Assembly (NCBI GenBank): GCA_033065855.1
Contig: JAVXUO010002083.1
Coordinates: forward strand, 434,001 to 498,000
Length of the DNA stretch: 64,000 bases
From: Escallonia rubra
Taxonomy: Eukaryota > Streptophyta > Magnoliopsida > Escalloniales > Escalloniaceae
Reading direction: 5' to 3'
Positions 2,506 through 57,277 of the stretch are shown here, one piece after another. The translations under genes were made by a program, and so were the position numbers. Under the pieces are notes generated by a model that was given only the letters and a program-made list of their open reading frames with translations, ran no database searches and was not told the origin of the DNA. The stretch's first letter is position 1; each line of letters opens with the position of its first letter.

Positions 2506-2729
2506 GTTAGCAGTCTAAAAGCTATGTTATGGTTAATACGTGTTTAGAGGATGTAATTAAGCTATGTTAACTTCAAAAGCCATTGTTACAGCAGTACTAT
2601 TACAATCATATTTCATTTCCTTCAAGTTTTGGCATAGGCCACGAAAATAGTCCAAAGAATCTTGAAAAGCTATGCCGCAAATACAGGAGTTTTAAACCTC
2701 CTGTGACAACACTACAACAAAACTGGGCT

Positions 2730-11500: not shown

Positions 11501-11934
11501 TCCTTATATAGCATTTCTTGAGAATCTTGCAATAACTTATAAAATTTCTCCGCCCCTATGTTAGGCCCTTCCATTGGAACATCAGTTTCACCATCTCTGA
11601 CTTCATCACTAGACATATGAAATCTGTCATGTAAAAGTCCTTGCATATCATCACTCACGTCTAATGCAACATGTGCACGAGAAAAGGGCGGAGCAGCTGA
11701 TGATGTAACTTCCCCATGAGCAACCCATTTAGTGTAACCCTTTATAAACCCATTACAGATTAGATGCCCACGTGCGTCTATTCGTGACACCCAAATGGAA
11801 TTCCCACACACATTACAGGGGCAAATAATCTCTCCATCAACACTTGCATTAGCAAACGCAAAATCGAGAAACTCATCCAATCCTTTTAAATATGCACTGC
11901 TGGTCCTACGTTGGTTCATCCAACTCTTATCCAT
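8597..11934 (-). CDS. CACTA transposase tnp2 (TNPD-type), C-terminal tail frameshifted
   Basis: This is the catalytic transposase of the element. The first coding exon is 11934-9689 (748 codons). It has an N-terminal transposase-associated domain with Cys and His residues (about residues 3-75), then the tnp2 core with the MRWHHE, HPADSPAWKTFD and LACDGFNPF blocks (about 285-336; D331 is a candidate catalytic Asp) and WTINDFPAYANLSGW. Exon 2 is 9600-9295 and carries a DUF4218-type block (GYLAEECLTFCSLYL). Exon 3 begins at 9218 (QHYDIIRS) and runs into a DUF4216-type domain (TQNSGLVVNA, YYGVLEEIIEL). Within it, a stretch near 9056-9116 probably is a GC-AG intron, but it is open if retained. The frame stops at 8597. 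Shifting by one frame from about 8612 restores a coherent tail down to 8438, so I infer a 2-bp loss near 8612. Start at 11934 is the MDKSWMN Met. Confidence 0.88.
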
Positions 11935-14440: not shown

Positions 14441-14581
14441 CGTCGTTTTGGACTAAAGCGTCCTTACAGCTAACTAGAAAAAGGGACGTTTTTTTCCTAG
14501 CGCCCTATATTCCACTTTATAGGACGCTTTTCATAAAGCGTCCCATTATTAGCGTCCTAACATCCCAATTTTGTTGTAGTG
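14441..14581. repeat. Right subterminal repeats and terminal inverted repeat of CACTA
   Basis: AAGCGTCC, GGGACG, TAGGACGC and AAAGCGTCCC occur in dense array up to the terminal TTTTGTTGTAGTG. The motif is the same as at the left end, in opposite prevailing orientation, as expected of TNPA-type binding sites. Confidence 0.8.
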
Positions 14582-14584
14582 CAA

Positions 14585-16478: not shown

Positions 16479-18597
16479 CTGGTCTTGATATTAGGTGAAT
16501 ACGAGATCGAGGTCCTTCAAACATCCAGTTATCTTCATCCAAGGATTTAACCTCCTTGGCAAGTGCAGCCATCAGATCTGATTTCAAAACTGTGATCCAA
16601 AAAGTTAGCCGGTTGAGGATATTGTTATAAATTCAACGAGAGAAAAGTCAAAACATGAGCGACTAGTACAATGTATTGTATCATGGATTAATGCTTTGCT
16701 CTTAAAAGACGAAGATCTGAACCAAGGTTGTTAAGTAGTTACATGAAACTCATAGAGTAGAATGTATGCTTCATTTTGTAATGACAAAGTCCTGATTTAA
16801 AATCTCCTCATAACTGTTAACCTACGACACTCCGTCAGCAACTGAAAGTTTACCCTGCGACAACTCTATCAACAATTGAATGGAGCTTGGCAATACAAAT
16901 GCTTTAAACTCCTCAAAGAATATAAGGTCTAGTACACAAAGGCAATACTTTTTTTGAAAAAACAAGATATGTAAAACTTGCATCATGACATTAAAAAGGA
17001 TAGTCCAATAATAACCAGAATAATTAGGGGCATTCTCGTCCCTTACAATAGAAGATCCTTTTTTGGGTGGTATTTAGTACAACTAGAAGCTATTACTTGA
17101 AATCCAATTATTTGACAGAATGGACGCCAAATAAGATATGATCAAAAGACTTCTCCATTTTTGTCATTTCAAGAGTGTCTTATGATGAGCACTAAGGTGC
17201 TAATTCGGTCCGGTCACCTGAATATCCAATCTTCCTTGGTTATGATGTTTCAATGGTTATCCTCATGGTTTCATCAAGTTTCACTTGCTGCAAAAGAATT
17301 TCAAGCTTATGCCTCTTAAGTCTACGCAAACTACCGTAGGAGATAGCTGTCATTGTCCTATTATTCTTGTGCTTTGTTGGATTGTTGTTTCGACTTTGTT
17401 TTAATACATTTTTGTGCATGGAAGTACATCTTAAGGACTATTTGGCTTTCTTGCTCTCAAAATCTTACCTGTTGATTTGGTCCTATAAACGAGGAATCGA
17501 GCAACATGGCTAGTAAATAGAGTTGGGGAACGTCTCCACATCCATTTCATCACTACAAGCAATAAAACGTAGCAATATGGTGTGGAAAGCATGGCAGTCG
17601 GATCCCCCATTGCACCAAAGCTCTTTAAAAACTGGTCCTATAATCTGAGGGGGCTATAATATTGCGAGGATTTCTTGCATGAGATTGCAACTTAGGCAAT
17701 GGCATCAGTGCAAAAATTGTATGCCCAGCAATGTTTGCATGCAGTCCCACCTTTTGCTTGGGAGGCGATCCCCGTTGGTTAGCCATCCATAGGAGTTAAA
17801 TTTGTCAAGTAGGCGATCCCCGTTACTTATTGTGGAACTCCAAAAGACCATTATAAGTTCCAGCTTGTGTAATGAGTAGTTCATTTTTGCTTTCATTAGT
17901 AGTTCAAAATTCAAATTTCATAGGAATGCAGACGACTATAGAAATTCAAGAGACATACTAAAGATAAATATTAGAAGTAACAAACTTTGAAGTTACACCA
18001 CTAAAACGCTTAAAAGACCGAGCGTGAAGGTTGAGCAAGACACGGCCGACTTGCCCCCCTAAACATCACATTTTTACATTTACTAAGGATAAATTTTATT
18101 ACATGTAATCATTGCATCGAACTTAAGGTATCATTTGACATATTAAACTCGAATAAAAACGGGAGTAAAAAGCCAATATTTATATATACCATCTCTATCG
18201 TAGTAGTCTCTCCCCGTTCAGTATAAAAAGAAAACGGGTCAGAAGAGAAAATGTGAAAAGAAAAATAAAATAAAAAGGTAAGAAGGTGGGTCAGACAGGA
18301 AGGAGAGGGGAAGGAGAATTTACGAAAAGTTAAATATGAAAAGAAAAATATAATAAATAAGTAAAAATAGATAAGAATATTAATAAAAAAAGAAAATTGA
18401 TCAAAAGGGAGTAATCTGCAGATACGGAGGGAATAATACAGCTTACCGAGAAGTGCCTCGTCCCTTCGATCCTGTACCGAAACCAGATCGGGCGGAAACT
18501 GCAACTCGTCGGCGGCCAGAGATGCGGCGACATTCCCTCCGGCGATTGCCGTCGACGACGACCTAGCCGGCGACAATGACAGTGAACTATTACTCAT
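16479..18597 (-). CDS. Uncharacterised small plant protein, first two coding exons (copy A)
   Basis: Exon 1 is 18597-18447 (start MSNSSLSLSP; an upstream in-frame Met at 18633 would add 12 residues). It ends at a G|GTAAGC donor. Exon 2 is 16589-16479 (CACAG acceptor, G|GTACC donor) and joins in frame. The 87 residues read have a Ser/Ala-rich start, then ADELQFPPDLVSVQDRRDEA and a conserved-looking block LMAALAKEVKSLDEDNWMFE followed by GPRSRIHLISRP. No signal peptide or membrane segment is seen. I do not recognise the family and assign no function. The last exon, beyond 16479, was not resolved. The gene is divergent from PIG-X, and copy B keeps both exons. Confidence 0.65.
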
Positions 18598-18841
18598 TCT
18601 CTCTCTAATTTGTTCTCTCCTCTTTCTTTCCAAAAGAATCCATTTTTATCAGCAGCAGGTCACAAAAACGACATCGTTGGCCTCATAAATGGTTCCTCTA
18701 ATTCTGTCCGTTGGTCAATTAAGCGACTGACGTGTCAGACATCTCCACCGTCGATCCTCCACGCGGAAGCAAATCAACGGAATCTCAAAATTCTCTTAGC
18801 TTCAGTTACCATCTCCGGCGAAACGACGACTTTAATTAACA
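18598..18841. promoter_or_regulatory. Compact divergent promoter and PIG-X 5' leader exon (copy A)
   Basis: The small minus-strand gene starts at 18597 or 18633, and the PIG-X leader exon ends at 18841 (TTAACAG|GTAAAG). The two transcripts therefore share at most about 200 bp of promoter. A near-palindrome AACGACATCGTT (18667-18678) resembles the AACGACGTCGTT-type core element common in plant promoters. No clear TATA box is visible. The role is inferred from layout. Confidence 0.55.
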
Positions 18842-20756
18842 GGTAAAGTTCAAATCTCTTTCTTCTCTGCGCGTCAATTTTAACATCTTTTTCAGTTATT
18901 TTATGTGTTTATTGGGCTCGGTCAATTAGTCAGATAGCTGTTATCTCATTATTGTTGGATCGGGGTTCATGTTTAGAAGTAGAAAATTATTGATCTTTGT
19001 TGAAACTTGCGAGAATTTGATTGTCAAATGTACTTTGGTTGTTCTATCAGCTCGATTGATATGAGTTGGAGGTGTGAGATTATTTGAGATGTTGTAGAAT
19101 TATGGCTGTGGTATCTTTTGAGAACAATGTTTGAACTAATGGACGTGTAAATTACGGGCAAATTTTCTATTTTGGAATCTCAAGCATGGAAGAGAAGGCT
19201 TGAAGATAATTGCACTGCAAATGCTAATGCGCTGAATTTTTTGTATAATGTGATCAAGGGTTGCCAAAGATAATCGAGAAACGACTTTAGTGTCTCAGAA
19301 GTTGGTCTAGGAAAACAATCATCATATGAAACCATGTGATAAATTAAAAAGGTTCACTCTTTCCAAATCACTTCTTTTGATATGCTCTTAAGTCTGTGGG
19401 CTGTGGCTCAGCTTATGCCTTTCAATTGTTTGCCATGCCAATTTCATTGGTGGTGTGCAACACAACTGAGGAGTAAATTTTTAATGGATGCAAATTCTTG
19501 GTCCTCTATAGGATGGAACATTCAGGATTCTATAGCAGTACCCACAGGAATGCTTTAAGGTGCAGGACGATTTGTCGTTTGCTTGATAATACTTGGGGCA
19601 GCACTCTTACCATATTTTGGAATCGAAATGATAATCTGCTGGGATTTACGGATGTTGCATTATTCGTTGAACTGCCTCAACTGATCCAAAGACACTGTTT
19701 TGCCATCTGTGGTCATTTACCTGCTAATAGCTACTAGTTTTACGCCAAGACAATATGAGAAGGAATCACTTAGGTAGGCTGCGTTTTGCCTTGAATTTTG
19801 TGATTGATCCAGGCAGGAGCATATCTAGTCGTAGATGCATTAGGAATAAAATTGAGAAACGTGTAGGCCTGAATGCTCACATGCTGCTTGCCAAACTTCT
19901 AGCTTTCGAGGGTAAGGGAATGGTATAATTCATCCTCCACGGTTACTTGTTCGGTTTGCTCAATTGGGAGATTCCTTTGGAAGAGACATTCATGTAAATG
20001 AGTAGGGGAGAATGGTAGTTTCTCTGTAGTAAAATGGGAATATGCAAGTCTTTGTACTTTATCCTAGTCAGAAGTCCTCTATTAGGTTAAAAGAAAGATT
20101 ATATCGCTCGGTTTGGCGTAACGTAACAGAAGAAGGCTCGATATGTTCAGCTAGAGCACTGTAACGGATATCGAATGAATCAATCCTGATTTCTTTTTCT
20201 TTAGAAGTTTTTCAATAACAGATATCTTTCCTTGATCACACATTTATTTGCTTTGTTTTTCGAGATTCCGCAATTAGGTTCTCCCACAAAATACTATGAG
20301 GGAATAAACTTTGCAGGACGATCCTCTTTCTTTTTGGGGTGAGAGCAATGAGTTTCAACTGAACTGAATATCCTACGCCTCTAGTTTTACATTTACTCTG
20401 ATAATGTTCTTGAACTGGAACTCAGTTTATTATAAAGCTTTAGTACTAATTATTAAGTCTTGACATAATACAGTACTGTAATTTGCCATTTTTTAGCATT
20501 TTAATTTTTGCATTGGTCTATGAAGGCTTTGTGTAACACTTTACCTTCAAGATTGTGAACAAACATGATTTATTACCTAGACGCGGAGAAATGAAATTCA
20601 TTCAAGAGAAAAATAACAATTATTTTGAATGATAAGCATCACGTATTTGGTGGAGGTCTGAGACTAAAGTTGGGTATATAAAGTAATTGAATTTTTCTAT
20701 AAGCTGGGTATGTAAAGTAATTGACTCTTGCATTTTGCTGCCTTCCGCTCTTTCAG
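18842..20756 (+). other. Probable 1.9-kb 5'-UTR intron of PIG-X (copy A)
   Basis: The donor CAG|GTAAAG at 18842 and acceptor CTTTCAG at 20756 would join the leader exon to the exon holding the PIG-X start codon. No other gene is seen inside. The leader reads open in the same frame as PIG-X after splicing, which I treat as chance. Confidence 0.6.
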
Positions 20757-20763
20757 CCATTTC

Positions 20764-22583
20764 ATGGGAATTCAACAATTTAAACTGCAAGTTTCTTTGA
20801 GACTTGGAATCGCACTGTACTTCTTTGCTAGCATAAGCTGTTGCAAACATGCTTCAACAATTAATGAGGTGAGTTGACTAAGGTGCTTGTTTCCTGCTGC
20901 TTACGATTATAATTGTAATCTCATCAGGTTTTGGTTTTAAATCCTTGCGTATAGTTTTTCCGTACTGTCCTATCATTTAAGTTACTTCTTTAGGGAGAGT
21001 CATCCTTTCTCACATTCTTCAACCGGCTTTTGTCACCTTGTTTTTTACCTAAGTTTTATCTTCATAACTACTGAACTTTAGTTTATCCCCCTTTGCAATT
21101 TGCAGGTGGGCAGTTGTACTTCCAATTTGGATGATAGCAATCCAAGCAGCAGCGCCTTGCATGGCGTCAATGAATTTATTACTGAAGCGTACTTTGAGAA
21201 ACATGCCAGCTTGATTGATTCAGATTTTCAGCGATTTCTCTCAAAGGAAATACCCCTTGAATTCTGCGAGGTCCTGCAAGATAAACTCGAGCCTGTGCCG
21301 AAGTTATCAATTTCTCATCGACACCTGATTGGTGAAGGTTCTCATCGTCGTCTTTCTTCATCCATTAGATTAGAAATCCAACCAGGGTCCAAATTTACAC
21401 TGCCTGCACACTTTTGTGATGCCATAGTGGTTGAGATATTGCCCTCCGGGGTCTTTGCAGATCCGTTTGAGCTACAACATCTTCTCCAGCGTGGTGGTAA
21501 ATTTCTACCTTACTTGTGAACCAACATTGTGATCCTGTTCTATTATTTTTCTCGAGGATTATGAGTTCAACAACTCTGGCGCAGTGTTTACCGGCGCAGC
21601 TGTTTTCGGGGACACAAATTTGGAGTTGCCTTCAGTTCGATCAAATCGGTCTATAGTCGAGATCCACATGGATATTGGCCCTAATGTACTGTCAGGAAAC
21701 AATAATGGACTGGAGATCAACATTGAGGTTCCATTACATGCACGTTATGCGGTAGGTGAATAAATATGTTACAAGAAAGTACTAGTTTTCCAGAGAAGGA
21801 TATCAGATATGCAAATGGGTGCCCTCCTCCTAGAAAACTAAGTTTGATTTTAAATGGACTCGGTATGAGTGTCCGAGTTGGATGCGTGTCCAAGTGTCGA
21901 ATTCGTCTAATTTTCAAAACTTTTCGTCTAATTTTCAAAACTTAAGACACGGGGACACAACATAATATGCCTATCTATTGTTATTTTTCAGTTAGTCCTT
22001 AGGTGACATGGCATTTTATGTGACGCATAATTTGAAACTTATCTCAAAGCACTTATGAAAACGAAACACCACGAGATAGTGTTTTTTATGGCAATGTCCT
22101 ATGACATGTGTTGGACACATATTTCATACCCATGTCCAAGTGTCGAGTGGCCGACATGGGTATTTCACGCATTTTAAATAGTCGATGTGACATAGCAGAT
22201 GATTATACAGTGATATGGAACTTGCATGTGCTTAATTACGTACAACCATGTGATCATAAAACTGCCTTTAAACTTTCTCCTCTTTGCAGCCCCTAGGAGA
22301 ACATGAATTTTCAAGAGTCGAATTTAGCCCTCCTGACTTATTTACGCGCTGCAGCTTTGAAGGGAAGTCACATAAACAGAGCTGTATATTTTTGTCAACT
22401 AATAAGAGTTTAGAACTCAAAGCTGGTGCGGTTGTGTGGGATGTACCTTGTGGAATCAAGGAGCACACTGGAATTGTATCTGTTGTTACTTTTTTCTCTG
22501 CAATTGTATCAGCTCTTTTAATAGTCTTTACAGCCTTTCATTATTCAGATACTACTGGCTGCAACAATTTGAAACAAATGTAG
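20764..22583 (+). CDS. PIG-X-like subunit of GPI mannosyltransferase I, copy A
   Basis: PIG-X is the ER partner that stabilises PIG-M, the enzyme adding the first mannose to GPI anchors. Coding exons are 20764-20868, 21106-21496, 21585-21751 and 22290-22583. All are GT-AG with matching phases, giving 318 residues. Residues about 10-28 form a signal peptide (LRLGIALYFFASISCC). The luminal domain has HRHLIGEGSHRRLSSSIRLE and the family-type PLHARYA-PLGEHEFSRVEFSPPDLFTRC block, ending in one C-terminal membrane helix (GIVSVVTFFSAIVSALLIVF) and a short tail. This is a type I topology with family-typical layout. The start at 20764 is chosen because it gives the signal peptide. Copy A has a 21-bp tandem duplication in the last intron (21902-21942) that copy B lacks. 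Confidence 0.88.
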
Positions 22584-22660
22584 TAACGTAGAATTAACAT
22601 TTTATGCGTTATATCATCTTGCTGTTTTGAATAATTACTGAACCAACTGAAGTCAGATTT

Positions 22661-30419: not shown

Positions 30420-31451
30420 ATGACATTGATAAGGGAGAGAAGGCAACAAAGAGCCTTAAGGCTATCAGTTCCGGAGCCAGTAGCTCCTCTACGGCATTAC
30501 ACTTATTCCTCGTCCTCCTCGTCATTATCATCATCGTCATCCCCATCATCGTCGGGAAGTATGAACTCCCCGGTCATTGAGAATCTCTCTGATCTCGAGA
30601 AACTGGCCGTTCTAGGCCATGAAAATGGTGGGACGGTGTACAAAGTCCGGCACAAGCTAACCATGGAAGTTTATGCCTTAAAAATTATCCGGTTTGGCGA
30701 AGATGCAGGCTGTGCAGCCAAGGTCCAACAGCAGGCCACACACGAGGGCGAGATCCTCAAGCTAGTGGACTCTCGGTTCGTGGTGAGGTGTTATGGGGTT
30801 CTTGATAGCGCCTTGGACGACGGGGGTGATATGTACTTTGTCATGGAGTACATGGCGGGAGGATGGCTGCAGGACGTCTTGCGCTCACGTCGGAGATAAC
30901 CGGAGACCACAATCTCCCGCGTGGCGAGAAGCGTGCTGGAAGGATTGCGCTATCTGCATGGGATGCAGATTGTGCATAGAGATATCAAACCATCAAATTT
31001 GTTGATTAACGGCAGAGGAGAGGTTAAAATTGCAGACTTTGGTGTCAGCCGAGTCGTGGCGGCGGACACAATCGAAGAGTGCGACTCGTGTGTGGGCACA
31101 TGTGCGTACATGAGTCCCGAAAGAGTTGATCCAGAGAGATGGGATGGTGATTACTCTGACGGGTTTGCGGGAGACGTGTGGTCACTTGGCGTGGTGGTTC
31201 TCGAATGCCACGTTGGTTGTTTTCCTTTGATCCCTCCGGGGCAAAAGGCGGACTGGGCGACGCTGGTGTTTGCAATTTGCCTTGGGGAGAAGATGGCGAT
31301 GCCAGAGTCGGCATCGCCAGAGTTTCATGATTTTGTGTGTAGGTGTCTGGAAAAGGATTGGAGGAAGAGGGGGACTGTGGAGGAGCTTCTTCATCACCCT
31401 TTTGTGACTAGATGTAGTAGTGGTCGTTTGGCAGTCGATAATGCCTTTTAG
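30420..31451 (+). pseudogene. MKK9-like (group D) MAP kinase kinase with in-frame stop
   Basis: The gene is intronless, 343 codons, as in plant group-D MAPKKs, which phosphorylate MAPKs in stress and ethylene signalling. Seen in order: an N-terminal docking site MTLIRERRQQRALRL, a Ser-rich linker (29-50), the glycine loop GHENGG (66-71), the ATP-binding Lys in VYALKII (K88), HRDIKPSN (catalytic D188), DFG (206-208), the plant activation-loop pattern T217-x5-S223, and GTCAYMSPER. Two faults are visible. Codon 160 (30897-30899) is TAA, in the same frame as both halves, between the hinge and the catalytic loop. The second glycine of the loop is Glu (E68). The rest is well preserved, so loss is recent, or the TAA is a sequencing error. 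A TATA box lies at 30346. Confidence 0.88.
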
Positions 31452-31952: not shown

Positions 31953-32087
31953 TCTTTTTTACTTTTGGCAAATTAAATTTTCTGGAAAAGAAAGTAAACT
32001 ACAGAAATGCGTATGTGTTGATATTCTCAATACGAATCTTAAGAAATGATACTTGAGGAACAAAGATTGCTGCTGCTAATCACGTCT
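31953..32087 (+). repeat. 135-bp direct repeat, left copy
   Basis: This is identical, as read, to 47216-47350 (TCTTTTTTACTTTTGGCAAA ... AATCACGTCT). The two copies bracket a 15,128-bp interval that contains the whole of duplicated copy B and about 1.3 kb beyond it. It looks like an oversized target-site duplication made when that interval was inserted. Confidence 0.9.
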
Positions 32088-32121
32088 CAAGGCAGCAGTG
32101 CATAACCTTTAACTTAACCAT

Positions 32122-33072
32122 TTAATTTGATTTTTGCTAGAAGGCTTAGCCTAACAATTCGTTGAAGGTCCTAAGCTGGATACATAGCAATCTAGTAATT
32201 CACTGTGGATCTGGTTTGGCTTACCGATTGGTATTACTATTCAAGATCTTCCGTGGCTGCTTGGGAGCTGATTTCTTACGGCGTTGGTTGGCCAAGCCTT
32301 TACTTGAACAAGCTACACTGATTCAAGCTTCTCTTTGGAAAGCAGTGACGTTGTGGTGCTCTGGAGAGGTCGTAATGATTTTGGGTTCTAGAGCATTTGC
32401 TTTTTGCCATTTTCAATCTTGTGGTGCTCAGAACATTTATCATACTCGGCGCTTCAGTAGGTGTTTTGCTTGGCTTATAGCTCCCTCACATGGTGGGGCG
32501 GCTCAGTCTACTGTATTTACATTTCACTCGAGGAGAATCTGCTCTTACGCCTCATCTCCGGCACTTATTCGATGCTATGTGGTGGGGCTACATCTCAATC
32601 TGGCTTTCAGCAATTGCTTATACATGAGATATACAAATGGGTTCCTTAACCCGCTATTTGTTTGCAGCTAGTATGGTTTCCGTGCATGCTTTTGCTTTTC
32701 TGAATTCCCTTACTTGGCTGCTATCTCATAATGTATGCCATGTTATTTTTAGTTATACTCAGACGACAGGTGATCTCCATATTCCTCCACAGGTAGGCAG
32801 CTCGCGCCAATTTTTTTGTGCATCCCGAGTGGTCGAACATGGTTTCTGTAAGGCCTGATGCAAGTTCATAAGCTTGGGTAGTGTCCTCCGGCTGTCTTCC
32901 TGTTTTGGCTATGGTATATAGGCTTTTTTTGGGCACGCTGCAGATTAGATTGGATTGTGGTGTTCCTACTGAGCGGATGGGGGTGCCATCCTGTTTGTTT
33001 GTCATGTATAAGTTTTATTGTATCCTGAGGTTTCTCTGATATATATTGTTCTTATACTCTTCAAAAAAAAAA
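32122..33072 (+). mobile_element. Probable non-LTR retroelement 3' fragment (copy B)
   Basis: This is the duplicate of 1557-2505, ending in ten A (33063-33072). One extra base relative to copy A (CACTGTGGATC versus CACTGGATC) joins a longer open frame here (32162-32671). That shows the frame is not under constraint. Class is inferred only from the GATATATAT tail plus poly-A. Confidence 0.35.
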
Positions 33073-34170
33073 GTTAGCAGTCTAAAAGCTATGTTATGGT
33101 TAATACGTGTTTAGAGGATGTAATTAAGCTATGTTAACTTCAAAAGCCATTGTTACAGCAGTACTATTACAATCATCTTTCATTTCCTTCAAGTTTTGGC
33201 ATAGGCCACGAAAATAGTCCAAAGAATCTTGAAAAGCTATGCCGCAAATACAGGAGTTTTAAACCTCCTGTGACAACACTACAACAAAACTGGGCTGTTA
33301 GGACGCTCAAAAGCGTCCTTACAGATATCATATTGGGACGCTTTTGACATAAGGACGCTTTGAAAGGCGTCGTAACTCCGCCCCATTAGAGGCCGTCACA
33401 ATAAGTTATCGCAACGCACATAAGCGCCTCAATAAGGGTCAGGCCTAACAAGACGCAAATAAGCGTCCTATAAAGTGTTCAGTGACTCCAATATGCCCTA
33501 TAGCGACGCTACAAAGCGTTGTAATAACTCTTTTAGGACGCCTCTAAGCGTTGTTATTTGTGTCGACAAATGTAAGGCCTAAGAAGGCGCAATTAAGCGT
33601 CCTATAAAGTGCTCAACTACAAGGCTCCAATATGCCCTATAACGACGCTAAAGAGCGTTCCAACAACTCTTTTGGGACGCTTTTTAGCGTTCTTACATGT
33701 TCCCTGTTTTAATTGTACCAAATTACAAATATTTTGGTATTTGATGCCTACGTTTCCAATTGCAATTTGTACCACATCAATAGACCAATGTATCCCAATT
33801 TGGTCCATACCGCATTGCAACCATAAGAAACTAATTGAAAGATAACATCCAAAGTCTTTGTATTAACCAAATGTCTCAAGTGAATGATTACATTGACTCC
33901 AAAGTTAAAGATAACCACTAATTCTATGTGCCTAACACAAAAAGACTCGTGACTATCAAGCTATCCAATGTCCATCCAAAAGTAACTTTGTCACCATCTA
34001 AGTCACTGATCACAGTGTCATAAAACCTTGAGAAACATATAGTCATCTAAGTCATCTAAGTCAGCATTCCAGTCACTGATAATCTAAGCAAAATATAGTC
34101 ATAAACCCTGGAGAAACATGTAGTCATCTAAGCAAAATATTGTCATCTAAGTCACCATTTAAGTCACTGA

Positions 34171-36827
34171 TCACATGCCATCAACACTCTCTAGTTCCAC
34201 CTGCAAATACAAACATGCACTCATTAGTTGATTGTGTATATGTATTAGATGCTTACACTTGTGATTTCTAATGGCAAAATTCAACATTTGTACATTGGCA
34301 ACTTTAGAAGCACTCGACTCTACAACATATAAATGTATTGCTCCATAGTAGCAAGAGTGCAAGCATCTCAATTGATCATAAGAATATGCGTGAGAGAACC
34401 TATCCTTGAAATCACAGAAATGATGATATAGCAAAACCTTTTCAGTTTGGAAAACTCTAGATGTAAGGCTGAGACTAAAGTGTGCAAACACGATAAAGAT
34501 CGACTTCAAGAAAAATGATATTTTCAAGGTTTTCTTAGAATAAGAATAAAGCAATCACAAAAAAAAGTGGGAACTTACATAAGGACATGGCCACGCAACA
34601 GTTGCTCCATATGCATCATAAATGGTTTTGTGAAACCCGTATGATCTTATCAAACGTTCATCCTTTTTCACAGCAACCTGAATAGATACTTCACACCAAT
34701 TCGGCCCAAGTTCTTCCCCTCCAACTTGTGTAGATGGATCTATGCTCTGTATAATTCCCTTTGCTACAGTTTCTGAGGGATTCATTAAGCTCTTAAGGCA
34801 TACAACATCTCGAACCTGAAGAGTAAATTCAACATAAAACAACTTGAGAGTTGCTGTCATAAGAGTTGCCAATGACAAACAAAAATTGAGCATTTATGTG
34901 CTTAGAGATGCCTACATGTTTCATTCTATTTTTAGGAGTTCTCTGGTTTGTATACTTTCTCTTAAGTGGAATTAAGGATTTCTGTTTATTCTTTATTCAA
35001 ATAATTGTAAGCAAGGAAGAGGGGGACGGGGGCAAGAAAGAGAAAGGGAGGATGGAAACTCTAACATTTGCATGAACCCGAGTAACCTAATTATAAAACA
35101 TTGACTAAGCAAAGAAGTAAACTAATTATCGTTCAAGTGATATGTTGTTATACGTACCCGAAAAGGACGGAGCAACTGCGTAGACGTGATCTGAGGACGA
35201 TGGTTAATAGATGTCGCAGGACTAGAGGTCTCAGATATGGATTCTTCACGTCCTCTATGCCGTAAGAACATAGACTTTAGCTCATCGATTCGGTTGTTAA
35301 ACCTTTCCTCCATTTGCTCGCAATTTGCCTTCCATTCCATTGCAATCCTGTGTGACTGTTTACGACTAGGTAGTCGACCCCATACATCAGATTGGGACAC
35401 ACCTAGCCCATACATGCGAACACGACCATATTTGTCTTTTCCCATAACCTGAGCAAGTATATCATTTTCACTAGGTACATCTTGCGAACCCTCTGGAAGT
35501 TTTTCTCTCTTCTCGTTCATTTGTGCCTACAAGACAAAACAACTTTCAATCCTAATTGTTTCCAAAGGAATGTTATTGAACGGTAAGAGAAAGGTCCAAG
35601 TAAAGACTACAAAATAGACCATGTAATTTGATGGTGTTCTGTTTTCATCCTTCTTTGAGTGGCATTCGATAAACATCTCCACCCGCGATGGATCATGCCC
35701 CAATTCAACTTTCTATCCAAGAAAACGAACGAAAGCCTCACCATTTAGCATTATTTATGTTAAAAAAATCTAACTTTTATTAAGGATGAGTACGTACCTT
35801 TCTTTCACGGACTAGGGCGTAACTCTCTTTGCCGGTAGTCTGCACCAACTTCTTCTCTTTCTGGTTATTCTTATTTTTCTCGCTAATGTCCTGAACAACA
35901 AATTCATGGACACTTGGTTAGTCTGATAAGGGTGAATTGATCATAGGATTCATGTGATAAGAACATTGCTTTAAATGCAAAGCCAAAGGAAGACCAATTC
36001 CAAAGCCTATGCTGACCCCTAAGGTATTTGAGCTTTTGATTAAGGACCACCAAAAGAGGGCCTGATTGAGGGACATCCTAACACTGCTGGACAAAATCAT
36101 GAAATTCAAGATGATTAACCCATATTTTCCAGCTTAGGCAGGGGGTTGATCATCTTGAATTTCATTATTTTGTCCAGCAGCGTTGAGATGTCCCTCAATC
36201 AGGCCCTCCTTTGGTTCTTGAATTTCATGATTTTGTCCTGCTGCATTTAAGCTGTTTCATGGATCAGCAGAACTCCTCCACCTCTCAGTTGCGTTCTTTA
36301 AAGTCCCAGAAGGAAGCTGGATCCCCCTCCTACTATAATTGGATCCCCTCATACTGTAATTGATCTTTATGGTCGTAATTTTTCATGGAACTAAGGAAAA
36401 CTAAACAAACAGCAATTCAACTTGGAGAACAAGATACTGGCTTTGGGTCCAAGCCTTATAATGGTTCGAGTCCCTGAAATTGGATTTATTAAAACTAAGA
36501 GGTCGTGTTCGTAGTTTTTACATTCAACATGCAGCTATAAATACTACTTAGGCTCGTGCCTCAAACATGTAGCATACCCCAATATTCAAAAGAAGTGATT
36601 ACATAACATATAAAGGTACATACCGTGGCCTTTTGAGTACCCCAATGCGCAACAAGATTCTTCCACTGAACTAGCTTGACTCGAGTTGGTTTCCTCTTAA
36701 TTTGATCATCATATGACAATGTCGGATCGAAGTGATCCTTCTTTACCTTGGCCTTCCAATTCCTGAATTTCTTTCCAAATGATTGTAAGAGCCACTCCTC
36801 GGAACCACAAGGGCAATCAAATTTTTC
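34171..36827 (-). pseudogene. TNP1-like gene remnant, exons 3-8 (copy B)
   Basis: Exons 36827-36624, 35890-35798, 35712-35620, 35526-35158, 34815-34579 and 34200-34171 are retained, all open. The two 5' exons, with the start codon, fell in the deletion. Exon 4 here has 15 bp more than copy A (35833-35847), reading KLVQTTGKESYALV. The QTTG stretch matches the usual family motif, so copy B keeps the older state. Confidence 0.8.
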
Positions 36828-36850
36828 CTGGAACAAATTCTAAGTAAATA

Positions 36851-37436
36851 GGGTTAATTACACTAGGCACCCTCAAGTTATCACTTTGTAGCGCTCTGCA
36901 CCACAAAGTTTTTTTTCGCTATCTGTCACCCCAAATTTTCATAAGTGTGGCACCCAACACCCTCCGTCCAAATTCCGGCAAAAAAAATTAATAAGCTGAA
37001 CTTTGGAGGGCATTTTTGGAACATCACAGAAACCCTAATTGCGCCGCCAACCCCCTTGCGCTGGCATCTCACGCCGGTGTCCCCCCTCCTTCGGCAGCGC
37101 CCCTCCCCCCGTCGGCGACGCCGACCTCGTCCCCTGCCTTCCTTTCTCTTCTCTCCCCCTCGCCCCGCGCCCCTCCTTCGGCATCTCACGCCGGTAAAGT
37201 CTCTTCCCACCCCACGGCCGCAATAGCCCTGCGCCGCTGTCCCTTGCCCCTCTTTCGCATCTTAGGCCGGTGCCGCACTCTCCGTCGGCAACGTCCCTGA
37301 ACCCTATCGGCGATGCCGAGCCCCTCTCTTCCTTCCTCTTCTCTCCCCCGCCCTCCACAGCGGCAACAGCCTCGCGCCGCCGCCTGACAAACCCATTGCA
37401 ATCTTTTTGACCAAAATGCCCCCTTGTTTAAGTTAA
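36851..37436. mobile_element. MULE remnant lacking its right TIR (copy B)
   Basis: The left TIR (36851-36979) and GC-rich interior match 6279-6866. The CACTA deletion starts 23 bp before the right TIR would begin, so this element has only one end and cannot move. Confidence 0.85.
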
Positions 37437-37684
37437 AGTGAAACGGTGTAGTATTGAGAATCAATTGGCGCTTTTCCCGTGTTCTCTCCTTTTTGTTGCG
37501 CGCCAATAAAAATTTCGGACTCAATCACACGTTGAAACGCCGTCGTTTTGGACTAAAGCGTCCTTACAGCTAACTAGAAAAAGGGACGTTTTTTTCCTAG
37601 CGCCCTATATTCCACTTTATAGGACGCTTTTCATAAAGCGTCCCATTATTAGCGTCCTAACATCCCAATTTTGTTGTAGTGCAA

Positions 37685-39580
37685 GTTAAAGTGAGCCATT
37701 TATGTCCTTCCATGTCACCCAGACTACCCTCACAAATTGGTCACTTTCACGGAACCAATCCCACCCGCCCATGCAATTGTCGCAAGACAATTTGAGGATA
37801 CTGAGTGCGGAGTTTCTATTAATCAGAAAATATTACAAGCACATCATAAAGAAGTACTCTAACAAGTTCTAATGCAAATAACAATCCACTTGCAGTTCCT
37901 GAAATTATTTTGACGCGACACAGCTCTTGCTGCTGAGTCATCCAGCAGCTATTGAAGCCTCTGAAAAGCATTGTGTATTGAGGTGTTATTCTACTTGCGT
38001 GGCAGCTAAAATCTACAGGGTTTTTGCTATACTCTTTTTTACTGTCATTTGCTATAGATCAAAGGAATTTTTATTCACAAGATATGTTTTAGAAAATACT
38101 CTATAACCTTTTTCTTTCATAAGAACTTAAAGGAATCATAAACGTTTAAGGCCGCATAGAATTTGTGAAGAAGTTCCACACAAAAGGAACATAAAGATAG
38201 TTTCTTAAGTGGAAAAGCCAAGAGGTAAAATATTAGCTACCATGCACATGGAATAACACCTTGCTTCCTCAGCCGGGGGGGGGGGGGGGGTGTTCAGTTC
38301 AACAAAATCTAAAAAAAAAAAAGAAATTGCATTGACAAATGTGATTTAATCTGCTTGCAGTTAACTAGATGTATAATCTGGGGTCTATTCTCAGAATTAG
38401 GAACCTTTACATATGTGGTTACATTGCCATTAGAATTCAAGAAGATGCAGCCTCTTCGAATCTTCGTTAACAAACAGAAAATGATTAATAATCATGTTTC
38501 CAAGCAACTAAAAGAAAAAGGGATTAAGGCCAATAACCAAGTAGTTTTTTCAAACCATGCTCTTTCATCGCCCATATCAAAACCAAATGGTTTAAGATGG
38601 CCCCAAGGCGTTCCATACTAGCAACATTTGTTGCAAGAGACTTACCTATGTGAAGGAAATGATCAATCTAAATATCCGTCTAATCAAAATCTATTGGAGG
38701 GCATCACTCACGACATAACTGAGCCTTCTACAGGGTTAAGTTTTTGTTTCTTGTACATGTCAATCACAACACTCTGCTGTTACTATTCTGAAAATTATAG
38801 TATTGGAATGCAAACCGAACCTGAGTAAGGCCATGCAGGTTTTAATCCTGGCCATCTCATATTCTCTTACTATGATTCACGAAACCTTCCATTGTCTGGG
38901 GCCCAGCGTATGCAATTCTAATACTGAGAATACTTGGGCAGAACATAAAAATATACCACAAAAGCTAAATTTATAAAACTTAAAGCACATAGGTCCAAAT
39001 AAACTAAGCATGTTCTCTTAAAGCAAGGCTGAAAGAGACATAACTTAAAGCAAACCCGGATACTTAGGCTCCCAAGGTTATATGATACATTTTTTTATCA
39101 AGTAAATGGATAATAAACACTAAATCCGCCTCCCACGTGAAAGCTATGTACAAGGAACTAAAATGAAATGCCAAAAAAACCCACTAGAAATAAAAAGCTG
39201 GAGACTCAAAACATAACTACTACTTAGCTCCCACTGAAAATCGTCAAGGAACTCCACAAGAGAGAGAGAGAGAAAATTCGGTTCTAGGTTATACAATATA
39301 CCGTTACCTTAAGGCTAATTTAATGTACGAGTTATGAAGAAAACAAATCTTTTTTTTGCGGGTCACAATGAAGAACATCAGCCTAATATTCATAGAGATG
39401 CCTTAACTTGTACAGTATGACTTTACATCCTCAATCCCCTGTAGCTTGGCCACTCGATGATTGGAAATTTAATCATCCAATGTAAAGGAAGGAGCTCACT
39501 CGAAAACCATAAGAGTGGATAAGAGAAAACAGAAATAAATGAGATAACATTAAGCAGCAACTAATGGTCATAGGTGGTAC
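37685..39580. other. Non-coding stretch of copy B downstream of CACTA
   Basis: This is the duplicate of 14585-16478 and nearly identical to it over about 1.6 kb, apart from the poly-G run (16 G at 38275-38290) and an AG run near 39260. No gene is recognised. The unplaced last exon of the minus-strand small gene is expected here. Confidence 0.5.
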
Positions 39581-41866
39581 CTGGTCTTGATATTAGGTGA
39601 ATACGAGATCGAGGTCCTTCAAACATCCAGTTATCTTCATCCAAGGATTTAACCTCCTTGGCAAGTGCAGCCATCAGATCTGATTTCAAAACTGTGATCC
39701 AAAAAGTTAGCCGGTTGAGGATATTGTTATAAATTCAACGAGAGAAAAGTCAAAACATGAGCGACTAGTACAATGTATTGTATCATGGATTAATGCTTTG
39801 CTCTTAAAAGACGAAGATCTGAACCAAGGTTGTTAAGTAGTTACATGAAACTCATAGAGTAGAATGTATGCTTCATTTTGTAATGACAAAGTCCTGATTT
39901 AAAATCTCCTCATAACTGTTAACCTACGACACTCCGTCAGCAACTGAAAGTTTACCCTGCGACAACTCTATCAACAATTGAATGGAGCTTGGCAATACAA
40001 ATGCTTTAAACTCCTCAAAGAATATAAGGTCTAGTACACAAAGGCAATACTTTTTTTGAAAAAACAAGATATGTAAAACTTGCATCATGACATTAAAAAG
40101 GATAGTCCAATAATAACCAGAATAATTAGGGGCATTCTCGTCCCTTACAATAGAAGATCCCTTTTTGGGTGGTATTTAGTACAACTAGAAGCTATTACTT
40201 GAAATCCAATTATTTGACAGAATGGACGCCAAATAAGATATGATCAAAAGACTTCTCCATTTTTGTCATTTCAAGAGTGTCTTATGATGAGCACTAAGGT
40301 GCTAATTCGGTCCGGTCACCTGAATATCCAATCTTCCTTGGTTATGATGTTTCAATGGTTATCCTCATGGTTTCATCAAGTTTCACTTGCTGCAAAAGAA
40401 TTTCAAGCTTATGCCTCTTAAGTCTACGCAAACTACCGTAGGAGATAGCTGTCATTGTCCTATTATTCTTGTGCTTCGTTGGATTGTTGTTTCGACTTTG
40501 TTTTAATACATTTTTGTGCATGGAAGTACATCTTAAGGACTATTTGGCTTTCTTGCTCTCAAAATCTTACCTGTTGATTTGGTCCTATAAACGAGGAATC
40601 GAGCAACATGGCTAGTAAACAGAGTTGGGGAACGTCTCCGCACCCATTTCATCACTACAAGCAATAAAACGTAGCAATATGGTGTGGAAAGCGTGGCAGT
40701 CGGATCCCCCATTGCACCAAAGCTCAAAACTGGTCCTATAATTTGAGGGGGCTATAATATTGCGAGGAATTCTTGCATGAGATGGCAACTTAGGCAATGG
40801 TATCAGTGCAAAAATTGTATGCCCAGCAATGTTTGCATGCAGTCCCACCTTTTGCTTGGGAGGCCCATCCCCCGTTGGTTAGCCATCCATAGGAGTTAAG
40901 TAGGCCTGACTTGAAATCAAAGATATACACCCCCCCCCTACTTATTGTGGAACTCCAAAAGACCATTATAAGTTCCACCTTGCGTAATGAGTAGTTCATT
41001 TTTGCTTTCATTAGTAGTTCAAAATTCAAATTTCATAGGAATGCAGACGACTATAGAAATTCAAGAGACATACTAAGGATAAATATTAGAAGTAACAAAC
41101 TTTGAAGTTAAAAGTTACAGTTTTTACCACTAAAACGCTTAAAAGACCGAGCTTGAAGGTTGAGCAAGACACGGCCGACTTGCCCCCTGAACATCACATT
41201 TTTACATTTACTAAGGATAAATTTTATTACATGTAATCACTGCATCGAACTTAACCAAAAGTCATATATAGGTATCATTTGACATATTAAACTCGAATAA
41301 AAACGGGAGTAAAAAGCCAATATTTATATATACCATCTCTATCGTAGTACTCTCTCCCCGTTCCACATAATTCGAGAAAACGGGTCACGAGAAAATGTGA
41401 GGAGAAAAATAGAATTAAAAAGGTAAGACAGGAAGGATAATTGACGAGTTAAATATGAAAAGAAAAATATAACAAATACGTAAAAATAGATAAGAATCTT
41501 AATAAAAAAAGAAAATATGATCAAAAGGGAGTAATCAGCAGATACGGATTACGGAGGGAATAATACAGCTTAGGAAGGATAATTGACGAGTTAAATATGA
41601 AAAGAAAAATATAACAAATACGTAAAAATAGATAAGAATCTTAATAAAAAAAGAAAATATGATCAAAAGGGAGTAATCAGCAGATACGGATTACGGAGGG
41701 AATAATACAGCTTACCGAGAAGTGCCTCGTCCCTTCGATCCTGTACCGAAACCAGATCGGGCGGAAACTGCAACTCGTCGGCGGCCAGAGAAGCGGCGAT
41801 GTTCCCTCCGGCGATTGCCGTCGACGAAGACCTAGCCGGCGACAATGACAGTGAACTATTACTCAT
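39581..41866 (-). CDS. Uncharacterised small plant protein, first two coding exons (copy B)
   Basis: Exon 1 is 41866-41716 and exon 2 is 39691-39581. Splice sites and phases equal those of copy A (16479-18597). The protein differs in at least one residue (GGNIAAS versus GGNVAAS). The intron donor lies at the edge of a 142-bp tandem duplication (41431-41714). The donor GTAAG is kept only next to the exon, so splicing should be unaffected. Function is unknown, and the last exon is not resolved. Confidence 0.62.
41431..41714. repeat. 142-bp tandem duplication at an intron donor, copy B only
   Basis: The unit 41431-41572 is repeated at 41573-41714, ending in AGCTTA next to the exon 1 donor of the minus-strand gene. 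Copy A has one unit at the matching place (about 18300-18444). The units look identical, so the event postdates the segmental duplication. Confidence 0.9.
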
Positions 41867-42110
41867 TCTCTCTCTAATTTGTTCTCTCCTCTTTCTTTCC
41901 AAAAGAAACCCTTTTTATCAGCAGCAGGTCACAAAAACGACATCGTTGGCCTCATAAATGGTACCTCTAATTCTGGCCGTTGGTCAATTAAGCGACCGAC
42001 GTGTCAGACATCTCCACCGTCGATCCTCCACGCGGAAGCAAATCAACGGAATCTCAAAATTCTCTTAGCTTCAGTTACCATCTCCGGCGAAACGACGACT
42101 TTAATTAACA
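41867..42110. promoter_or_regulatory. Compact divergent promoter and PIG-X 5' leader exon (copy B)
   Basis: This is the same arrangement as 18598-18841, with the AACGACATCGTT near-palindrome kept (about 41936-41947) and the leader donor CAG|GTAAAG at 42111. It shows several substitutions relative to copy A. Confidence 0.5.
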
Positions 42111-44017
42111 GGTAAAGTTCAAATCTCTTTCTTCTCTGCGCGTCAATTTTAACATCTTTTTCAGTTATTTTATGTGTTTATTGGGCTCGGTCAATTAGTC
42201 AGATAGCTGTTATCTCATTATTGTTGGATCGGGGTTCATGTTCAGAAGTAGAAAATTAGTGATCTTTGTTGAAACTTGCGAGAATTTGATTGTCAAATGT
42301 ACTTTGGTTGTTCTATCAGCTCGATTGATATGAGTTGGAGGTGTGAGATTATTTGAGATGTCGTAGAATTATGGCTGTGGTATCTTTTGAGAACAATGTT
42401 TGAACTAATGGACGCGTAAATTACGGGCAAAATTTCTATTTTCGAATCTCAAGCATGGAAGAGAAGGCTTGAAGATAATTGCACTGCAAATGCTAATGCG
42501 CTGAAAATTTTGTATAATGTGATCAAGGGTTGCCAAAGATAATCGAGAAACGACTTTAGTGTCTCAGAAGTTGGTCTAGGAAAACAATCATCATATGAAA
42601 CTATGTGATAAATTAAAAAGGTTCACTCCTTCCAAATCACTTCTTTTGATATGCTCTTAAGTTTGTGGGCTGTGGCTCAGCTTATGCCTTTCAATTGTTT
42701 GCCATGCCAATTTCATTGGTGGTGTGCAACACAACTGAGGAGTAAATATTTAATGGATGCAAATTCTTGGTCCTCTATAGGATGGAACATTCAGGATTCT
42801 ATAGCAGTACCCACACCCACAGGAATGCTTTAAGGTGCAGGACGATTTGTCGTTTGCTTGATAATACTTGGGGCAGCACTCTTACCAGATTTTGGAATCG
42901 AAATGATAATCTGCTGGGATTTACGGATGTTGCTTTATTCGTTGAACTGCCTCAACTGATCCAAAGACACTGTTTTGCCATATGTGGTCATTTACCTGCT
43001 AATAGCTACTAGCTTTACGCCAAGACAATATGAGAAGGAATCACTTAGGTAGGCTGCGTTTTGCCTTGAGTTTTGTGATTGATCCAGGCGGGAGCATATC
43101 TAGTCGTAGATGCATTAGGAATAAAATTGAGAAACGTGTAGACCTGAATGCTCACATGCTGCTTGCCAAACTTCTAACCCTCGAGGATAAGGGAATGTTA
43201 TAATTCATCCTCCACTGTTACTTGTTCGGTTTGCTCAATTGGGAGATTCCTTTGGAAGAGACATTCATGTAAATGAGTAGGGGAGAATGGTAGTTTCTCT
43301 GTAGTAAAATGGGGATATGCTAGTCTTTGTACTTTATCCTAGTCGGAAGTCCTCTATTAGGTTAAAAGAAGGATTATATTGCTCGGTTTGGCGTAACGTA
43401 ACAGAAGAAGGCTCGATATGTTCAGCTAGAGCACTGTAACGGATATCGAATGAATCAATCTTGATTTCTTTTTCTTCAGAAGTTTTTCAATAACAGATAT
43501 CTTTCCTTGATCACACATTTATTTGCTCTGTTTTTCGAGATTCCGCAATTAGGTTCTCCCACAAAATACTATGAGGGAATAAACTTTGCAGGACGATCCT
43601 CTTTCTTTTTGGGGTGAGAGCAATGAGTTTCAACTGAACTGAATATCCTATGCCTCTAGTTTTACATTTACTCTGATAATGTTCTTGAACTGGAACTCAG
43701 TTTATTATAAAGCTTTAGTACTAATTATTAAGTCTTGACATAATACAGTACTGTAATTTGCCATTTTTTAGCATTTTAATTTTTGCATTGGTCTATGAAT
43801 TCAAGATTGTGAACAAACATGATTTATTACCTACACGCGGAGAAATGAAATTCATTCAAGAGAAAAATAACAATTATTTTGAATGATAAGCATCACGTAT
43901 TTGGTGGAGGTCTGAGACTAAAGTTGGGTATGCAAAGTAATTGACTTTTTCTATAAGCTGGGTATGTAAAGTAATTGACTCTTGCATTTTGCTGCCTTCC
44001 GCTCTTTCAGCCATTTC

Positions 44018-45816
44018 ATGGGAATTCAACAATTTAAACTGCAAGTTTCTTTGAGACTTGGAATCGCACTGTACTTCTTTGCTAGCATTAGCCGTTGCAA
44101 ACATGCTTCAACGATTAATGAGGTGAGTTGACTAAGGTGCTTGTTTCCTGCTGCTTACGATTATAATTGTAATCGCATCAGGTTTTGGTGTTAAATCCTT
44201 GCGTATAGTTTTTCCATACTATCCTATCATTTAAGTTACTTCTTTAGGGAGAGTCATCCTTTCTCACATTCTTCAACCGGCTTTTGTTACCTTGTTTTTG
44301 ACCTAAGTTTTATCTTCATAACTACTGAACTTTAGTTTATCCCCCTTTGCAATTTGCAGGTGGGCAGTTGTACTTCCAATTTGGATGATAGCAATCCAAG
44401 CAGCAGCGCCTTGCATGGCGTCAATGAATTTATTACTGAAGCATACTTTGAGAAACATGCCAGCTTGATTGATTCAGATTTTCAGGGATTTCTCTCAAAG
44501 GAAATACCCCTTGAATTCTGCGAGGTCCTGCAAGATAAACTCGAGCCTGTGCCGAAGTTATCAATTTCTCATCGACACCTGATTGGTGAAGGTTCTCATC
44601 GTCGTCTTTCTTCATCCATTAGATTAGAAATCCAACCAGGGTCCAAATTTACACTGCCTGCACACTTTTGTGATGCCATACTGGTTGAGATACTGCCCTC
44701 CGGGGTCTTTGCAGATCCGTTTGAGCTACAACATCTTCTCCAGCGTGGTGGTAAATTTCTACCTTACTTGTGAACCAACATTGTGATCCTGTTCTATTAT
44801 TTTTCTCGAGGGTTATGAGTTCAACAACTCTGGCGCAGTGTTTACCGGCGCAGCTGTTTTCGGGGACACAAATTTGGAGTTGCCTTCAGTTCGATCAAAT
44901 CGGTCTATAGTCGAGATCCACATGGATATTGGCTCTAATGTACTGTCAGGAAACAATAATGGACTGGAGATCAACATTGAGGTTCCATTACATGCACGTT
45001 ATGCGGTAGGTGAATAAATATGTTATAAGAAAGTACTAGTTTTCCAGAGAAGGATATCAGATATGCAAATGGGTGCCCGCCTCCTAGAAAACTAAGTTTG
45101 ATTTTAAATGGACTCGGGATGAGTGTCCGAGTTGGATGCGTGTCCAAGCGTCGGATTCGTCTAATTTTCAAAACTTAAGACACGGGGACACAGCATAATA
45201 TACATTATCTATTGTTCTTTTTCAGTTAGTCCTTAGGTGACATGGCATTTTATGTGACGCATAATTTGAATTATCTCAAAGCACTTATGAAAACGAAACA
45301 CCACGAGATAGTGTTTTTTTATGGCAATGTCCTATGACATGTGTTGTAGACATATTTCATACCCATGTCCAAGTGTCGAGTGGCCGACATGGGTATTTCG
45401 CGCATTTTAAGTAGTCGATGTGACATAGCAGATGATTATACAGTGATATGGAACTTGCATGTGCTTAATTACGTACAACCATGTGATCATAAAACTGCCT
45501 TTAAACTTTCTCCTCTTTGCAGCCCCTAGGAGAACATGAATTTTCAAGAGTCGAATTTAGCCCTCCTGACTTATTTACGCGCTGCAGCTTTGAAGGGAAG
45601 TCACATAAACAGAGCTGTATATTTTTGTCAACTAATAAGAGTTTAGAACTCAAAGCTGGTGCGGTTGTGTGGGATGTACCTTGTGGAATCAAGGAGCACA
45701 CTGGAATTGTATCTGTTGTTACTTTTTTCTCTGCAATTGTATCAGCTCTTTTAATAGTCTTTACAGCCTTTCATTATTCAGATACTACTGGCTGCAACAA
45801 TTTGAAACAAATGTAG
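44018..45816 (+). CDS. PIG-X-like subunit of GPI mannosyltransferase I, copy B
   Basis: Exons are 44018-44122, 44360-44750, 44839-45005 and 45523-45816, with exon lengths identical to copy A (105, 391, 167 and 294 nt), giving 318 residues with no break. I count eight coding substitutions against copy A, of which four change the protein: C to R near the end of the signal peptide, R to G, V to L and P to S. The last exon, including the membrane helix, is identical. Both copies are therefore potentially functional. The function and start choice follow copy A. A 5' intron (42111 to about 44010) is inferred as in copy A. Confidence 0.87.
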
Positions 45817-45893
45817 TAACGTAGAATTAACATTTTATGCGTTATACCATCTTGCTGTTTTGAATAATTACTGAACCAACTGAAGTCAGATTT

Positions 45894-47215
45894 ATGGACT
45901 TGTTGAATGACCGAAGAACAACGAAAGTACTGATCTGGAGCCAAGTTTGCAGTATTCGGCATGGTTCAGAGTAATCTGGAAATGGTTCAGATTATTGGAG
46001 ATGTGCTGGGGAAAGAAGCCGGGTAAGGACATATATGTGAGGTTGGTCTGTAAAAGGTTCCATGAAATGTAATTACCTCTTTGCCCAGCTGCCATCGACT
46101 GCCTTGACTAGGGCCGTGGCTTGGGCGGGCTGGACGGGTTCAACGGTCAGACCATGCACAGCCCACTGTCAAAAGTTGTGCCCGTGTCCAGCCTATCCCA
46201 TCTACGGGTTAAATAATATATGTTCATGCCTGGCCATGAAAGTTTTGGTGGGCACGGGCGGGACATGTGTTGCCCACAGTTGTTTATATTTTCATATTTT
46301 GTTTACTTAATTTTAACGTGTATTAATTATATTAGTCATGAATTTTTGTTTATCTGATTTTTAAGCATATCATTTGACATTGAAGTCTACTAATTAGTGA
46401 TGATAATAAAGTAGAGTATAGTGAAGTCTCAAAATGGATTTAGTAATAAGTAGGGATGGCAATTCAACCCGCACCCGCCGGATATCCGCTCCGCCCCGCT
46501 CCTATAGGAGCAGATCTTTTTAACTATAACCGTGTCATGGGGCGGGTTTGATATTTGTTTTCAAAACCCGCAGCGGATACGGGGCGGGTATGATTTTAAG
46601 TGTAATTGCCCCCGACCCGTTTTAAGTGTAATTGCCCCGCGACCCGACCCGACCCGCTCCTATTTATACTATAATCAAGCTTGAATCTCAGCCGTTGAAA
46701 GCTATTGAAAACCCTAGCCCCTTTCATCTTTTTCCCCATTCCCTTATTCTCCTACAGCCGCCGCACCACCAAGCACGTCACCCTTCGGTTGCCTCCCGCC
46801 GTCGACCTGTGACTCCACGCACGTCACCAACTTTGGTCGCAATCTGCCGTCGCCATTCACCGGTCGCCTTCTGCCGTCGTCGTTCACCATTCTCCGTTCA
46901 GTCCACCCGCCTTCCGTCGTTCGCCGCTCTGTCCATTAGGCTTCCGCGCGCCGTCGCCTTCCCCGGCACCTCTTAACCATGTCTTGGAAGATAATCTAAA
47001 AACAGATCCGTCTCTAGAAGACTGGACAACCACTGTCCGCCAACGCCGGTTGTCCATCCACCGGAGAATCCCCACTCCGCCACTATCACAGATTCGTCCC
47101 CGGATGATTTTTCTGAATTTGCACTTACAATCTTTAAAATGGCAGTACGGATCGGGTCGGGTCGGTTTACCAAGAAGGCCATCGAATCGGGGATGGTATC
47201 ATCCAGTTTTAAGTG
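45894..47215. other. Copy-B flank inside the 135-bp bracket, GC-rich repeats
   Basis: This is not shared with copy A. At 46450 a word TAGGGATGGCAAT, hAT-terminus-like, opens a run of CCCGC/GCGGG words (46465-46660) with a 28-bp spaced repeat TTTTAAGTGTAATTGCCCC at 46591 and 46619. The C-rich part to 46980 reads open as a Pro/Arg/Ser-rich peptide (46632-46976), which I judge to be composition. No right-hand hAT terminus was found. Confidence 0.45.
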
Positions 47216-47350
47216 TCTTTTTTACTTTTGGCAAATTAAATTTTCTGGAAAAGAAAGTAAACTACAGAAATGCGTATGTGTTGATATTCTCAATACGAAT
47301 CTTAAGAAATGATACTTGAGGAACAAAGATTGCTGCTGCTAATCACGTCT
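47216..47350 (+). repeat. 135-bp direct repeat, right copy
   Basis: This is identical as read to 31953-32087. It marks the right border of the interval that contains copy B. Confidence 0.9.

Positions 47351-54514: not shown

Positions 54515-54545
<31 letters not shown>

Positions 54546-57209: not shown

Positions 57210-57277
<68 letters not shown>

Follow-up and report, generated by a model that had tools for sequence, protein, structure and literature searches.

Local duplicate genes in plants are usually ascribed to unequal crossing-over or to transposons. In replication of the FoSTeS/MMBIR type, templates are used in series, synthesis returns near its point of departure, and the switches lie at short microhomologies. 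Among repair-made duplications, the vertebrate cases cited from Pace et al. (2009, PMC2671141) arose by proximal DNA capture and measured at most 619 bp; their target duplications were 4–21 nt and their fillers 1–68 nt long. For plants, gene movement by gap patching (Wicker et al. 2010, as described in PMC3445842 and PMC3503983) has been reported, with gene-bearing filler in the repair of breaks. Tandem duplications were assigned to breaks with staggered ends or to nicks close to each other (Vaughn and Bennetzen 2014 and Schiml et al. 2016, via PMC7407515 and PMC7464560), and induced nearby nicks in plants led to tandem duplication (as described in PMC7464560). The fill-in of overhang breaks as a route to tandem duplication has also gained experimental support in mammalian cells (Schimmel et al. 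2021, PMC8355091). For rice, the fillers cited at transposon excisions had a mean length of 13 bp and ranged from 1 to 123 bp (PMC4423477). Template-switch replication is covered by PMC7407515 and PMC3706897.

The locus described here lies in a window of 64 kb, which is the whole stretch of Escallonia rubra DNA that was analysed. Two genes and a transposon are present there in two neighbouring copies, A and B, and copy B is located between identical 135-bp direct repeats (Table 1). As in the vertebrate cases cited, a nearby donor would have been copied into a break, with filler, microhomology and sometimes a target duplication at the ends. However, those cases reach 619 bp, whereas 13.8 kb plus 1.3 kb and a duplication of 135 bp are involved here, and the locus also far exceeds the rice filler counts cited. 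With plant gap patching as described it shares a gene-bearing fragment as filler in break repair, and it differs in that the donor is the neighbouring locus, that two genes and a CACTA element occur together, and that a long direct target duplication is present. The duplications described for nicks and staggered breaks likewise double a target stretch, which is ascribed to overhang fill-in, and a 142-bp tandem repeat within copy B is of this form; the rice insertions cited there measure 10–1,000 bp, in contrast to the 15-kb insert that separates the units at this locus. Common to FoSTeS/MMBIR would be the serial use of several templates and the return close to the departure point. Its switches lie at short microhomologies, whereas a 34-bp filler is found here at the left join and a short patch at the right. 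The locus probably belongs to a known class, duplications made by repair or template switching, in which its size would be unusual.

Table 1. Positions of the features at the duplicated locus, counted from the first base of the window.
Feature	Positions	Strand	Basis and remarks
Copy A (presumed donor, or a sister of the allele that served as donor)	1557..22660	+	blastn
CACTA (En/Spm) element in A	2710..14581	-	11,872 bp; target site duplication CAA/CAA
SAMBA-like gene in A	about 16462-18597	-	exons seen
PIG-X gene in A	20764-22583	+	Pfam PF08320, 5.6e-22 (A copy scanned)
Protein-kinase ORF left of the insertion	30420..31451	+	Pfam 4.2e-39 for the larger piece
Left 135-bp unit	31953..32087	+	kinase ORF ends about 500 bp upstream; identical to 47216-47350
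Filler of 34 bp joining the left unit to copy B	32088..32121	+	no source in the window
Copy B proper	32122..45893	+	blastn and alignments; homologous to A 1557-22660, apart from a missing portion of the CACTA interior
CACTA element in B, internal-deletion form	33277..37681	-	4,405 bp; matching ends; target site duplication CAA/CAA
SAMBA-like gene in B	39564..41866	-	two coding exons seen
PIG-X gene in B	44018..45816	+	open reading frame over 4 exons assigned by eye
Non-A sequence, 1,322 bp	45894..47215	+	no other window match >14 bp (BLAST)
Right 135-bp unit	47216..47350	+	identical to 31953-32087

The 135-bp repeats and the interval between them

The first-pass annotation had reported identical direct repeats around an interval of 15,128 bp, and this was borne out, including the limits. 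All 135 of 135 bases agree between the two units, the flanking bases differ on both sides, and the identity cannot be extended by a single base at either end. In 20 sequences simulated from the window by a first-order Markov model, exact direct repeats reached at most 15–19 bp, and the 135-bp repeat is thus not a product of chance. When the diagonals of copies A and B were set aside, three exact direct repeats of at least 40 bp were present in the window: the 135-bp pair, the tandem repeat of 142 bp in copy B, and, around 95–181, a short array of tandem units. A sensitive BLAST search (E up to 1) of the 64-kb window returned two full-length copies of the unit and one match of 12 bp, and a third copy was found neither at copy A nor elsewhere in the window.

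It had further been claimed that the repeats enclose exactly copy B. This was nearly right at the left, where 34 bp are extra, and wrong by 1.3 kb at the right, as homology to copy A accounts for 13,772 of the 15,128 bp (91%). The remainder consists of 34 bp without a source in the window and of 1,322 bp that are not related to A. Copy B is in direct orientation, and the presumed donor is still present at a distance of 9.3 kb.

Copies A and B

Each copy harbours a CACTA element with CACTACAACAAAA at both termini and the 3-bp target duplication CAA/CAA. Because the ends and the target duplication are identical at one insertion site in A and B, the insertion of the element predates the duplication of the locus. 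On the minus strand, the element in A contains TNP2-type and TNP1-type coding pieces, with Pfam matches to PF02992 (Transposase_21, TNP2; 7.7e-103), PF03017 (1.3e-13), PF13960, PF13963, and PF13952. The element in B is devoid of the part corresponding to 6867–14338 of A, which holds the TNP2 piece, and the TNP2 transposase is therefore found in A alone; a 1-bp filler is located at the deletion joint. Insertion of 6867–14338 into A was considered and rejected, since the outer ends and the target duplication are common to both copies, which points to an internal deletion in B. This deleted element is one of two derived-looking states in B. The other is a perfect 142-bp tandem duplication (41430..41713, plus strand), which is single copy in A, lies where the first intron of the SAMBA-like gene starts, and has the form that fill-in at nearby nicks would leave.

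Two genes are shared by the copies. For PIG-X, a product of 318 aa is predicted from four exons assigned by eye, without a stop in either copy, and the two versions differ in eight codons, of which four changes are silent and four are not. The minus-strand gene, which we take to be SAMBA-like, gave no Pfam match up to E 1 and no PDB match better than E 0.57. Between A and B, an HSF-like gene was recognised by the end of its DNA-binding domain (E 0.028, below the Pfam cut-off), followed by the protein-kinase ORF. The latter appears to be a single exon and contains an in-frame TAA at 30897–30899, indicating either a pseudogene or a sequence error. The window is plant-like in content, with the CACTA element and its TNP2 domains, PIG-X, and the HSF-like and protein-kinase genes. 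Among the frames examined there was no sign of a coding gene split by the insertion; a 65-aa frame at 31625–31819 had no credible match, and neither Rfam (at the gathering threshold) nor a tRNA scan gave a hit in the window.

Other observations concern the sequence to the right of the duplicated locus. Decayed LINE pieces lie on the minus strand of the right flank at 48443–49880 (zf-RVT 1.2e-14; RVT_1 1.7e-05, below the Pfam cut-off), a cluster of 70–89% direct repeats with CT and AC microsatellites at 54093–57604, and a bZIP transcription-factor frame at 63441–63998 (Pfam bZIP_1 3.1e-13), which is cut by the window end.

Divergence between the copies is not uniform. The raw counts were 31 substitutions in 5,299 and 145 in 8,268 aligned sites. 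Columns within 10 positions of a gap and dense clusters were removed, which retained 123 of 176 substitutions and 13,046 of 13,567 aligned sites. The cleaned divergence is 0.43% for 1557–17374 of A (35/8,225) and 1.83% for 17375–22660 (88/4,821), a step with a binomial P of 1e-14, and at the far end a tail (22179–22660) is nearly identical, with one difference in 482. A two-segment fit placed the step at 17478. Among fits of one to eight segments the lowest BIC was obtained with seven, several of these being short clusters, and the two-segment description was chosen for reporting on grounds of simplicity. The mosaic could reflect either another allele as the template, with recombination since then, or later conversion, as one copying event that started from the A haplotype of today, with neutral drift afterwards, would not yield both 0.43% and 1.83%. 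The probability of finding no difference in 135 bp is 0.56 at the lower and 0.083 at the higher divergence, and the 135-bp duplication consequently agrees better with the younger (0.43%) estimate, with the older one still being possible.

Junctions and the course of the duplication

At the left junction, the target ending in CACGTCT is followed by the 34-bp filler and then by A from 1557. The best BLAST matches of the filler in the window are 11–12 bp long, with E 0.075 or weaker. Where copy B ends on the right, the two copies are still alike through GAAGTCAGATTT and diverge thereafter, and the adjoining 1,322-bp piece matches neither the flank of copy A nor, over more than 14 bp, anything else in the window. 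Its last bases read CATCCA GTTTTAAGTG and are followed directly by the right 135-bp unit. The window has two occurrences of GTTTTAAGTGT, one at 46619 and one at 47206, so that a patch of 10–11 bp at the right junction matches 46619 and nothing else there. CATCCA occurs just before the left unit (31946–31951) and again at 47200. The terminal CATCCA and GTTTTAAGTG may thus represent a microhomology plus a templated patch, and the right join, as far as a single junction can suggest, might be such a short patch, perhaps with microhomology; since CATCCA is a common 6-mer with 42 occurrences on the plus strand of the window, the microhomology may be due to chance.

The right edge of copy A shows local TTTTATGCGTTATATCA repeats (22601–22710, at 22601 and 22659), which are followed by a GGA run and are absent from the continuation of B. 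From their arrangement they look like a repair scar of A itself. Copy A may therefore be rearranged at this edge, and its present flank is maybe not the original one.

We lean, with some reserve, towards a single event of break repair or template switching beside the kinase gene that made both the insert and the 135-bp duplication. Some 0.5 kb downstream of the kinase gene, the DNA would have broken or its synthesis stalled, and repair would have proceeded by DNA copying. The growing strand would have left the target at 32087, passed through the 34-bp filler, entered the neighbouring locus at 1557, and copied about 13.8 kb in direct orientation up to 22660, including the CACTA element and the SAMBA-like and PIG-X genes. 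For the next 1.3 kb an unrelated donor would have served as template, after which the strand would have returned to the target at 31953. As this point lies 135 bp upstream of the departure, the 135 bp would have been made twice. Fill-in of a widely staggered break with synthesis-dependent copying, as well as template switching of the replication type, would give the observed sequence equally well.

A single event is favoured by the 135-bp identity, which stops exactly at both junctions, and by the non-donor pieces at both ends. The two derived-looking states in B also speak for this reading, in which B would be the copy. The distance of 34 bp between the end of the left unit and the start of the homology to A is hard to see as a coincidence. 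The earlier proposal that repair or a template switch captured a 15-kb piece of the neighbouring locus is the best fit for the part of the interval with homology to A. It does not hold for a plain piece of the neighbour, as the neighbour offers no source for the 34 bp and the 1,322 bp, and at least three junctions are required. Fill-in of a staggered break, which had been suggested for the 135 bp, is one option next to a stretch copied twice or the remnant of a larger tandem duplication.

The non-uniform divergence (35/8,225 versus 88/4,821) counts against one event from the present A locus. A single break repair that took about 13.8 kb, with two complete genes and a transposon, from the allele on the homologous chromosome and left the 135-bp target duplication is a tentative possibility.

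The main alternative, a rather unlikely course, is a 30.5-kb tandem duplication of 1557–32087, followed by a deletion of about 9.3 kb (22661–31952) in the second unit with 1,322 bp as filler. The junction of 32087, 34-bp filler and 1557 would then be that of the tandem, and the right 135 bp would be the surviving end of the second unit, so that the trace equals that of a direct target duplication at a break. Both the junctions and the direct orientation are as expected from this course, which also accounts for the start of B beside the end of the left unit. Non-homologous filler is also on record for plant insertions and deletions, with 38 cases (12.7%) cited from a barley comparison (PMC3706897). 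However, two events are needed, the deletion must stop 135 bp short of the end of the unit, which is a mild coincidence, and by BLAST within the window 45894–47215 retains no trace of another HSF or kinase gene. Simple unequal exchange is insufficient, because 22661–31952, with the HSF-like and kinase genes, has no second copy in the window by blastn. A tandem made by unequal crossing-over was rejected on this basis and for the missing homology, judged by eye, between the edges at 32087 and 1557.

An assembly artefact, in which an allelic or misplaced contig with B was set between contigs with an unmerged 135-bp overlap, is unlikely. The 0.43%/1.83% mosaic together with the transposon and indel differences resembles two haplotypes, and an unmerged overlap would presumably leave an exact repeat flanking a foreign contig. 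On the other hand, the window contains no N, the non-A sequence on both sides of B (34 and 1,322 bp) is unlike a plain allele of A, and the 10–11-bp patch at the right junction looks biological.

It is very unlikely that the position of B is the older one and A the derived copy. The templated-looking local repeat at the right edge of A (22601, 22659), lacking in the continuation of B, would agree with such an order. So would the gene order in Arabidopsis, where SAMBA, MKK10 and HSFA1D are, as we presume, neighbours, with SAMBA adjoining the kinase as with B; a literature search found no paper naming two of these three loci. However, the exact 135-bp repeat, 34 bp from the homology edge of B, would be left unexplained, a duplicated target beside A was not found in the window, and it is B in which the deleted CACTA form sits.

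Hardly credible are carriage by a mobile element, integration of circular DNA through 135-bp homology, or exchange between pre-existing 135-bp repeats: a circle with one unit would presumably integrate as unit, insert and unit, and a CACTA element is present inside B, but no further copy of the unit was found, be it at A or elsewhere in the window, the sequence of A is not a permutation of that of B, and the ends of the CACTA element lie internally in B with their own CAA target duplication, by which it was also rejected as carrier of the whole interval. The earlier view that the 135-bp duplication is too long for a transposon target site accords with the missing inverted repeat at the outer ends and with contents that read as unspliced genomic DNA. 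Comparison of 32088 and 47215 gave 6 matches in the first 20 positions and a longest inverted match of 9 bp within the outer 300-bp ends. Transposon-borne insertion (TIR, LTR, LINE) was rejected, as terminal motifs are missing, the interval reads CA...TG, and introns and intergenic DNA lie inside; Helitron ends at the limits were assessed by eye only.

Significance for gene duplication in plants

The meaning of the locus depends on which course is true. If a tandem duplication was followed by a deletion, the locus would be an ordinary local duplication and the 135 bp a leftover. If copying repair made it, it would show cleanly, in a natural setting, how repair synthesis duplicates genes, and the length that such copying can reach could be stated as a number. 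Its value as a case lies in the readable junctions, the nearby donor, the long target duplication, and the two intact-looking genes. If the template was the allele on the homologous chromosome, the copying would be far longer than in the repair duplications cited, and plants would be able to gain intact gene pairs in one repair step without unequal crossing-over.
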